Shown: piece by piece, positions 50,732 through 53,791 of the stretch | Layout: each line of letters starts with the position of its first letter | Position numbering within the stretch: the stretch's first letter is position 1 | From: Rhodohalobacter sulfatireducens | GTDB lineage: Bacteria; Bacteroidota; Rhodothermia; Balneolales; Balneolaceae | Assembly (NCBI RefSeq): GCF_022012475.1 | Contig: NZ_JAKLWS010000001.1 | Location: 310,001-374,000 of the forward strand | Reading direction: 5' to 3' | Length of the DNA: 64,000 nt | Translations under genes and position numbers: made by a program | Notes under the pieces: generated by a model | What the model was told of the DNA's origin: nothing | Seen by the model: the letters and a program-made list of their open reading frames with translations, nothing else | The model's database searches: none

Positions 50732-51625
50732 CTAATCTTCCAAAACCTCCAAGATCCCCGGCGTAACATCCAAAATACTCTCTGCATTTCTAAACGGCTT
50801 CGTGTTTCCCTTCACAAACAGTGGAACCGGGTTTCGGGTATGCGTTTTAATGGACAGATCTTCTAAATTTCCATGATCGCTTGAGAGAACAAGTGTATCA
50901 TTCTCATCCAGATTTTCTATAATTTCTGTAATAAATCGATCCAAAACGCTTAAGAATCTATTCGCTATCTCAGGGTCTTGTTCGTGGCCGGCTTTGTCTG
51001 TGAGGTAGTATTCAAATAGAACAAGGTCATACTGACCCAGCGCTTTGAGCATTCTTACTGAAGCTTCTTCCGGTTCAATTTCCGGTACGTCTAATCGCAG
51101 TTTACTTCTCCAGGCTGATTGTATGATCTCGGCTGTGACAGCTCTTCCTTCTACCACATCTTCTAAACGATTTAGCTTTACTCCTGCAGATCGAGCCATG
51201 AGTGTGGTGCAACTCCAGCGGTTTCTCTTTTGTGATTTCTCAAAAAACAGGTCCGGATAGGCATTCAAAAAATGAGGTTTCAACCCCATCTCAATTACTT
51301 TATGAAACAGGCTTTTCTTTTTTAGCAATGGTTTAATTTCTGAATGAGGAAAAGGCCCAAAATGTCTTCCTACTACTTTAGAAGCATTCTCTCCTGTAAA
51401 CAGAGAAGTCTGACCTGTTCCACTTTGTGGAAGTCCTTCTACCTCGAGATTAGCATCGATTTTTTTGAACAGGATGGACCCCACATCTCTCTCTTCACAA
51501 CCATCATAAAGACCCGTTTCTCCGGTAAAATAGGAGAAGGATTTTAAATCGGAAGAAGCCAGTGGATTGAACTCTGTTTTTGGTCCGATTCCAACTCCAT
51601 CAACAAAAAGAAAACAAACAGCCAT
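50732..51625 (-). CDS. Alkaline-phosphatase-superfamily metalloenzyme
   Basis: The 297-residue protein belongs to the metalloenzyme domain shared by cofactor-independent phosphoglycerate mutase and phosphopentomutase. Metal-site motifs are FLFVDGVGIGP near the start, SGTGQTSLFTGEN with the catalytic Ser/Thr, LSSDHGNLEDLS and THTRNPVPLFVK near the end. It is too short for a full mutase, since it lacks the cap or insert domain, and its substrate is unknown. The start overlaps the stop of dtd by one base (TAATG), so the two are coupled. Confidence 0.8.
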   Translation of the reverse strand: MAVCFLFVDGVGIGPKTEFNPLASSDLKSFSYFTGETGLYDGCEERDVGSILFKKIDANLEVEGLPQSGTGQTSLFTGENASKVVGRHFGPFPHSEIKPLLKKKSLFHKVIEMGLKPHFLNAYPDLFFEKSQKRNRWSCTTLMARSAGVKLNRLEDVVEGRAVTAEIIQSAWRSKLRLDVPEIEPEEASVRMLKALGQYDLVLFEYYLTDKAGHEQDPEIANRFLSVLDRFITEIIENLDENDTLVLSSDHGNLEDLSIKTHTRNPVPLFVKGNTKPFRNAESILDVTPGILEVLED

Positions 51626-52065
51626 TACTTCTCCAGGATCAAAGTAACCGGTCCACTGTTTGTGAACGTTACATCCATCATCGCTCCAAACTCACCTGAT
51701 TCTATTTGTAACCCGCTGTCTCTTTTTAGTAGATCAATCATATAATCATAGAGCGGTTCCGCTTTATCCGGTTTGGCCGCTTCAATAAAGCTGGGTCGAG
51801 TTCCTTTATTAGCGTTTCCATAGAGAGTGAATTGTGAAACCACCAGAATTCCACCGTTTACATCCTCAGCAGATCGATTCATTTTTCCCTCATCATCCTC
51901 AAAAATTCGGAGGGTTGGAATCTTTCTGCAACACCAATCTACCTCTTTTTTTGTATCTGATTCGTGGATGCCAACAAGAATTAACAGTCCATTTTCAATA
52001 CTTCCTGTCACCTTATTATTAATGGTTACGCTCGCGTTTTTTACTCTTTGCACTACAACTTTCAT
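51625..52065 (-). CDS. dtd: D-aminoacyl-tRNA deacylase
   Basis: Dtd removes D-amino acids (and glycine from tRNA-Ala) mischarged on tRNA. The 146-residue enzyme has the start MKVVVQRVKNASVTIN, the LLILVGIHESDT strand, the catalytic SQFTLYGNANKG segment and the C-terminal cross-subunit NSGPVTLILEK. I chose the ATG at 52065, since the upstream 19 residues are not part of the family. It is the first gene leftwards from the candidate replication origin. Confidence 0.95.
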   Translation of the reverse strand: MKVVVQRVKNASVTINNKVTGSIENGLLILVGIHESDTKKEVDWCCRKIPTLRIFEDDEGKMNRSAEDVNGGILVVSQFTLYGNANKGTRPSFIEAAKPDKAEPLYDYMIDLLKRDSGLQIESGEFGAMMDVTFTNSGPVTLILEK

Positions 52066-52078
52066 ATGTGAGTAACTG

Positions 52079-52600
52079 TGTGGAAAACTTTGTATTTCTT
52101 GTTTAAAACAGAAATTTCTCAATTATGATCGAATCTATCCACATCAATCCACAATTAAAAACAGTTATCCACAGGGTTAAAGAATAACTTTTCGTGTTGA
52201 AAAGAGAATGTGTGTCAATAGGTGTGAAAAATATAAAATGTTGATTAGTCAAAACTCGACTTTATAAGTATCTGTTTTTTATGGAAAAATTATCCACATA
52301 ATTATTCACATATCATTAAGATGATATAAATTCATCACAATAAAAAAGTTATACACTTCTCCACATCCCCTACTACAATACAACAAAATTCAAATTCTCA
52401 TACTCTTAGTCTATACATGTGGATAACCTGATGAAAACTTCTCACTATAGATCTACGTAGATCAAAATAAAGAACATCTCTTTACCGGGTCAGAAATCAT
52501 CATATGTAAGAACAGAGATCAATTTGACAGGGTTTCTCATCATTTTATTTGTAATTCTTTATTTTTTTTGATCAATTTTTAAAAAAACTCACCGGCCAAG
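52079..52600. other. Candidate chromosomal replication origin (oriC) with DnaA-box cluster
   Basis: The gap between divergent dtd and purM has no gene but a dense set of DnaA boxes. Perfect TTATCCACA or its complement occurs at 52165-52173, 52290-52298 and 52418-52426 (reverse). One-mismatch forms are at 52079-52087 (reverse), 52135-52143, 52302-52310 and 52357-52365, with weaker ones at 52145-52153 and 52349-52357. An AT-rich tract at about 52535-52587 could unwind. A perfect 14-base palindrome GATCTACGTAGATC is at 52450-52463. dnaA and dnaN are not in the window. The density is the main evidence. Confidence 0.75.
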
Positions 52601-52667: not shown

Positions 52668-52751
52668 TATTTCGTCTTCGCTTCACTCAATATGACGTCA
52701 GTTCGAGCCTGCCTTTGTCGGCAGACAGGCGTAACGAAGTGGAGTCGAGAA
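52668..52751. repeat. Dispersed palindromic repeat upstream of purM
   Basis: TTCGTCTTCGCTTCACTC-like and AACGAAGTGGAGTCGAGAA-like flanks surround GAGCCTGCC and GGCAGACAGGCGTAA (52705-52733). The core matches the repeat at 9227-9260. The repeat leaves an open frame that extends purM at its N-terminus without being part of the enzyme. Confidence 0.55.
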
Positions 52752-52786: not shown

Positions 52787-53791
52787 GTGTCAGACAAAAA
52801 ATTTACATACAAAGACTCAGGAGTTGATATTCAAGCCGGCGAAGACCTGGTGAATTCCATCAAAGATATAGTAAAGGAAACCCACAATACCAATGTGGTA
52901 AGTAATATCGGTGGGTTTGGCGGACTCTTTTCTGCTGACTTTGGATCGATGAAAAATCCCATTCTTGTAAGCAGTGTGGATGGCGTTGGAACCAAACTGA
53001 TTGTAGCATTCAAATCTGAAAAGTACGATACAGTTGGCCAGGATCTGGTAAATCATTGTGTGAATGATATTGCCGTTTGCGGAGCCACTCCCCTTTTCTT
53101 TCTCGATTATTTTTCAACCGGAAAACTGGAACAAAAAGTTGGTTTTGATGTAGTCAGCGGTTTTGCCAAAGCATGCAAAGAAAACGGTGTGGCACTGATC
53201 GGAGGAGAAACTGCCGAAATGCCGGATATATACGACAAAGGAGAATTTGACCTGGCCGGTACCATCGTTGGAGTGGTAGACCGAGATCAATTGATCACCG
53301 GTGAGAAAATTCAAAAAGGTGATCTGCTAATTGGATTCAAAAGTTCAGGCCTCCATACCAATGGATATTCTTTAGCTCGGAAAGTTTTGTTTAGTGAGTA
53401 TGATGTAAATGATCAGCCGGAGGAATTAGATCGAACGGTTGGTAATGAACTGCTCCAGGTTCATAAATCTTATCTCAACGTTATTTCGGAACTAAAAGAG
53501 GTAGATGGAGTTCATGGATTTTCCCACATCACCGGCGGTGGAATTGTAGGGAATACCAAGCGAATTCTTCCGGATGGCCTAAAACTGGATCTGGATTGGA
53601 AGAGCTGGAAACGACCCGCCATATTCGATCTGATCCAAAAAACAGGAAATGTACCGGAAGACGATATGCGTGCAACTTTTAATCTTGGGATCGGTTTGAT
53701 TACGGTGATTTCACCATCTAAAGTTGATGAAGTTGAAAAAATGTGCAGTGAATTGGGTGAAGAGATCTATAAGATTGGCTCTGTCACATAA
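52787..53791 (+). CDS. purM: Phosphoribosylformylglycinamidine cyclo-ligase
   Basis: PurM makes aminoimidazole ribotide in purine synthesis. The sequence from FTYKDSGVDIQAGEDLV onwards is typical AIR synthetase: SSVDGVGTKLIVA, LFFLDYFSTGK, ALIGGETAEMPDIY and GFKSSGLHTNGYSLARK. The open frame reaches back to an ATG at 52649, but those 46 residues come from a dispersed repeat. I therefore prefer the GTG at 52787 (VSDKKFTYKD), giving 334 residues. It is the first gene rightwards from the candidate origin. Confidence 0.92.
   Translation: MSDKKFTYKDSGVDIQAGEDLVNSIKDIVKETHNTNVVSNIGGFGGLFSADFGSMKNPILVSSVDGVGTKLIVAFKSEKYDTVGQDLVNHCVNDIAVCGATPLFFLDYFSTGKLEQKVGFDVVSGFAKACKENGVALIGGETAEMPDIYDKGEFDLAGTIVGVVDRDQLITGEKIQKGDLLIGFKSSGLHTNGYSLARKVLFSEYDVNDQPEELDRTVGNELLQVHKSYLNVISELKEVDGVHGFSHITGGGIVGNTKRILPDGLKLDLDWKSWKRPAIFDLIQKTGNVPEDDMRATFNLGIGLITVISPSKVDEVEKMCSELGEEIYKIGSVT

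Follow-up and report, generated by a model that had tools for sequence, protein, structure and literature searches.

The dtd-purM intergenic region as the predicted chromosomal origin of replication, away from dnaA, of a Balneolaceae bacterium

The window, i.e., the whole 64,000-nucleotide stretch of DNA that was analysed, comprises bases 310001-374000 of the 524-kb contig C50; the source genome is 5.1 Mb in 138 contigs. Two divergent genes, dtd and purM, both confirmed by Pfam, are separated by intergenic DNA that contains no genes, is ~71% A+T, and holds the window's most easily melted 570-bp stretch. It harbors seven DnaA boxes, three perfect and four with one mismatch, inside 52079-52426, or 348 bp. 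A first-pass annotation had read the region as a candidate oriC, counting three perfect and at least four one-mismatch boxes in about 350 bases of gene-free, AT-rich DNA between divergent genes, and that description is accurate. The features are as follows, where signed positions are distances in bp from the trio-proximal box at 52357:

51625..52065, minus strand: dtd, D-Tyr-tRNA(Tyr) deacylase (PF02580, 2.1e-59), with a conserved ATG start at 52065
52079..52087, minus strand: DnaA box TTTTCCACA, one mismatch
52135..52143, plus strand: DnaA box CTATCCACA, one mismatch, kept at -222
52165..52173, plus strand: perfect DnaA box TTATCCACA, kept at -192/-190
52290..52298, plus strand: perfect DnaA box TTATCCACA, kept at -67 (28/70 aligned regions)
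52302..52310, plus strand: DnaA box TTATTCACA, one mismatch, kept at -55/-56 (34 and 15 of 70)
52349..52357, plus strand: upstream box of the tandem pair, TTATACACT, two mismatches, often TTATCCACT in relatives
52357..52365, plus strand: trio-proximal DnaA box TTCTCCACA, one mismatch, at the single genome-wide box-plus-trio site
52366..52369, plus strand: C-rich spacer TCCC, linking the 52357 box to the trios
52370..52375, plus strand: DnaA-trios, here two clear repeats reading CTACTA (complement 3'-GATGAT-5'), motif as defined in PMC8287927
52376..52417, no strand: predicted unwinding segment from the trios to the inverted box, position kept in 69/69
52418..52426, minus strand: perfect inverted DnaA box (TTATCCACA), 61 bp from the trio-proximal box
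52540..52590, no strand: AT-rich tract of low stability, probably outside the conserved element
52787..53791, plus strand: purM, AIR synthase (PF00586/PF02769), with a probable GTG start

Box counts were compared with 20,000 samples of a first-order Markov chain derived from the intergenic DNA. When up to one mismatch was allowed, the Markov samples averaged 0.28 sites, compared with the seven observed, and neither three perfect boxes nor a total of seven was reached in any sample (0/20,000). The cluster at 52079-52426 is the densest not only of the window but of the whole 524-kb contig, on which the runner-up (at a threshold of at least four boxes per 500 bp) had four boxes, one of them perfect; intergenic DNA with a DnaA-box cluster above chance is what an oriC should contain. 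A cluster of four boxes, one perfect, lies upstream of an amtB-like gene at C50:226253. Genome-wide, perfect TTATCCACA occurs 88 times in 5.1 Mb, about once per 58 kb, against 46 for a reversed-pattern control; the earlier estimate of one per 130 kb applies to random sequence. Between the predicted origin and purM, 52695-52731 has a similar copy at C50:51199 (37 bp, 92%) and is possibly a small dispersed repeat.

The published BUS search (PMC8287927) sets a minimum of three trios whose middle base is adenine. The window trios, CTA CTA CAA, provide two strict repeats where that program requires three; in many relatives the run extends to three or more, e.g., CTACTACTA. No farther than 16 bp from the trios there is a box with at most two mismatches (the 52357 box, with its 4-bp spacer), and a second box lies in tandem with it (52349). 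The strict pattern TAGTAG-N3-6-TGTGGANAW found a single match in the 5.1-Mb genome, at C50:362357, which is window position 52357. Because the box-plus-trio pattern is unique, unwinding should start at about 52370-52417, and this DnaA-trio segment, between the 52357 and 52418 boxes, is the most likely unwinding element. The first-pass annotation had favored a very AT-rich tract for this role; the tract exists at 52540-52590 and is of low stability, yet it was judged to lie outside the conserved element because purM of many relatives starts ~100-150 bp after the inverted box.

The named relatives with a high-identity PurM are Balneolaceae (Fodinibius, Aliifodinibius, and Balneola). Tandem DnaA boxes, a short spacer, a CTA-type trinucleotide run, and an inverted box ~61 bp on were found in all 69 dtd-linked regions, among which the inverted box is 52-78 bp beyond; conservation of the box cluster in related genomes had been proposed earlier as a check. 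Markov samples of those regions yielded box, trio and inverted box together in 0.22% of cases, and the contrast with 69/69 is optimistic because the motif criteria were fixed after inspecting the sequences. Boxes recur at -222/-220, -192/-190, -67, -55/-56, -8, +61/+62, and +70 relative to the trio-proximal box. One with at most one mismatch occupies exactly -222 in 17 of the 70 aligned regions and -220 in 12 more, and position -8, that of the tandem partner, in 40 of 70.

In two genomes (G062 and G051), purM is on another contig and the motif remains near dtd, ~265 bp away in G062. The fixed neighbor of the predicted origin is dtd, and purM is its usual right-hand neighbor. The same two genomes have an apparent rearrangement breakpoint at the origin, and in G003 an ORF of ~165 residues, DinB/YfiT-like by eye, is situated between the origin motif and purM (L130 10600-11330); genera with a longer gap may carry this ORF too. 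Among Balneolales of other families, five genomes retain the dtd-purM box cluster and one (L298) also has the box and CTA; in the four f2-family genomes the box cluster is present, and the box+CTA motif was not found with the pattern used. In class members outside the Balneolales, dtd is not linked to purM and has no box upstream, and a phylum-wide search for box plus trio gave only scattered matches beyond the Balneolaceae. Off-target matches in G015, G020, G030, G031, G057, G065, G067, G077, and G083 were treated as chance because they adjoin no dtd, purM or dnaA and have no evident inverted box at the conserved spacing.

The first-pass annotation had named the cumulative skew minimum as a check on its oriC reading, and it was examined in two family members whose genomes are closed into a single contig, G003 (purM start at 956,325, dnaA near 1.30 Mb) and G041 (purM start at 319,547 on the minus strand, dnaA near 3.62 Mb). 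Skew was sampled in 20-kb stretches, over a contiguous 380 kb around the site in both genomes, and over all of C50. Minima coincide with dtd-purM and leave the oriC reading unrefuted. In G003, the cumulative GC-skew minimum across the 380 kb is at 955,882, ~250 bp from the box+trio at 955,634, with that of the AT skew at 955,979. In G041, the AT minimum is at 320,159 and the combined GC+AT minimum at 320,168, the predicted inverted box being near 320,164; the GC-only minimum is at 283,047, 37 kb off, where the curve is flat. For the draft contig C50, the minimum falls at 353,310, 9 kb to the left of the boxes (362,079-362,426), with mixed skew just to the right, and it coincides with the start of a plus-strand gene block that includes trmD. 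Coarse whole-chromosome skew in G003 and G041 switches sign mainly at dtd-purM and near the opposite pole. When two equal arms were fitted to 160 five-kb bins, with candidate origins on a 5-kb grid, the best antipodal origin was 955,000 in G003 and 285,000 in G041, and the fit at dtd-purM itself was 0.048 and 0.040, respectively.

A dif-like 26-mer, GTCGTATAATATATATTATGTAAAGT, is identical in the source genome (C52:25081), G003 (C1:2757921), and G064 (C2:952631), and is a probable XerCD site for Balneolaceae. In G003, the site at 2,757,921 is 51.6% of the chromosome away from dtd-purM; weaker dif-like matches are 50.8% away in G041 (three mismatches) and ~47% away in G184. The terminus is thus roughly opposite dtd-purM in all three. 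Sites resembling parS lie 14-70 kb from purM in 9/9 genomes tested, ~67 kb in the source genome, and are thus origin-proximal in every one. Two of them in the source genome, C50 295362 and 295516, are 154 bp apart, in or beside a gene that we take to be rsmG/gidB and next to one that we take to be mnmG/gidA, both names having been given by recognising the sequence without a family search. The 154-bp spacing is also seen in G064, G040, G041, G023, and G026.

That dnaA is not near, as had been claimed, is borne out: it is on a different contig, C92, in the source genome and ~345-450 kb from the origin site in those relatives that have a single contig carrying the two, so that the site adjoins neither dnaA nor dnaN. 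Could the origin nevertheless be the prmC-dnaA intergenic region, with the dtd-purM boxes serving as a DnaA titration or regulatory site? Each of the 30 dnaA upstream regions scored contains at least one perfect box, and nearly all of these regions share conserved positions (about -316, -154, and -58) and the same orientation; the source genome has three perfect same-orientation boxes there (C92, 3265-3531). However, a box+trio match, and even then a weak one, was found in only 1 of the 30. Moreover, dnaA lies inside one replication arm in both G003 and G041, where the skew fit falls to 0.016 and 0.010; the expected sign is found in 75% of G003 5-kb bins if the origin is at dtd-purM versus 59% if it is at dnaA. 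The dif site is not opposite dnaA, nor is parS near it. An origin at dnaA was rejected because of skew, dif and parS, and we consider it very unlikely; the boxes upstream of dnaA are instead likely to function in autoregulation or titration of DnaA. Elsewhere, at C82 15520-15575, two perfect DnaA boxes in inverted orientation to each other lie ~126 bp ahead of a reading frame that resembles dnaB, the replicative helicase gene.

An origin placed elsewhere in the same zone, for instance in the gidA/gidB-parS region ~67 kb away in the source genome, has in its favor that mnmG and rsmG are classical origin neighbors, that parS is in or beside rsmG/gidB, and that the skew minimum of C50 is somewhat displaced from the boxes. 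This region nevertheless has no box cluster, just four scattered one-mismatch sites in 5 kb, and in G003 the skew falls on past parS to dtd-purM, the fits at parS being 0.042 in G003 and 0.035 in G041. Lacking boxes and with a worse skew fit in both genomes, it was rejected as extremely improbable. Nor is there much reason to suppose that the cluster simply serves DnaA-dependent regulation of dtd or purM. Divergent genes do flank it, and other groups of DnaA boxes precede dnaA and dnaB; yet the motif is kept where purM has gone elsewhere (G062 and G051) or has another frame before it (G003), the site is the skew switch, and the trio and inverted-box geometry is absent from the dnaA promoter cluster. 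We give this last explanation almost no credence.

With skew minima, dif position, parS proximity, and the conserved box array all in support of the oriC reading, the dtd-purM intergenic region, with its core at 52079-52426, is very probably the chromosomal oriC of this Balneolaceae bacterium. What the sequences show directly is the set of boxes with its conserved geometry, the uniqueness of the box+trio site, and, in closed relatives, agreement with the skew minimum and with the position opposite dif; the order of events during initiation is what such an arrangement would predict. DnaA would bind at 52079-52310, where a phased left array holds the high-affinity boxes, and to the tandem pair at 52349 and 52357. 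A DnaA-ATP filament would then be guided, presumably rightward, from the 52357 box onto the DnaA-trios from 52370 onward, where it would stretch the trio strand and open the duplex up to the inverted box at 52418. Helicase would be loaded in the opened segment for bidirectional replication.

The kind of system is already known: the predicted origin would be an ordinary DnaA/BUS-type one in a lineage-specific place, and what may be new is its dtd-purM placement, fixed across the Balneolales. It shares with Bacillus subtilis incC/oriC and its BUS (PMC6669920, PMC8287927) consensus DnaA boxes, upstream boxes at fixed spacing, and a tandem pair that a short spacer separates from CTACTA-type DnaA-trios, with AT-rich DNA beyond them. 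It differs in being flanked by dtd and purM, not by dnaA, in having only two clear trios, and in an unwinding segment closed by an inverted perfect box ~61 bp on. The dtd-purM array also resembles dnaA autoregulatory clusters in having conserved groups of perfect boxes, but the cluster upstream of dnaA in Balneolaceae is without the trio motif and off the skew switch.

The neighbors of Escherichia coli oriC are gidA and mioC, whereas those here are dtd and purM; both origins are distant from a dnaA whose promoter keeps DnaA boxes, and the BUS layout is clear at dtd-purM. In general, oriC flanks dnaA (PMC4285127); that of E. coli is separate from it, and its BUS layout scored as relatively weak (PMC8287927). 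No paper dealing with both Balneolaceae and oriC, and no description of a dtd-purM origin, was found in the accessible literature, the scope of which did not extend to subscription papers and DoriC.

A more speculative idea, which we regard as rather doubtful, is that the origin split from dnaA in the Balneolales ancestor and became fixed beside dtd, while the trio-less, rigidly spaced array at dnaA still acts at a distance in DnaA titration or reactivation. If true, initiation control would be in two parts spread over roughly 350 kb. The dtd-purM origin would give the Balneolales, an order with no origin described in the literature searched, one that is testable at the level of individual bases, and would show that an origin distant from dnaA, and tied to dtd, can keep its place throughout an order. 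Box and DnaA-trio motifs single out one site in a draft genome for which skew by itself gives no clear answer, and draft Balneolales genomes could thereby be oriented and growth rates estimated from coverage.
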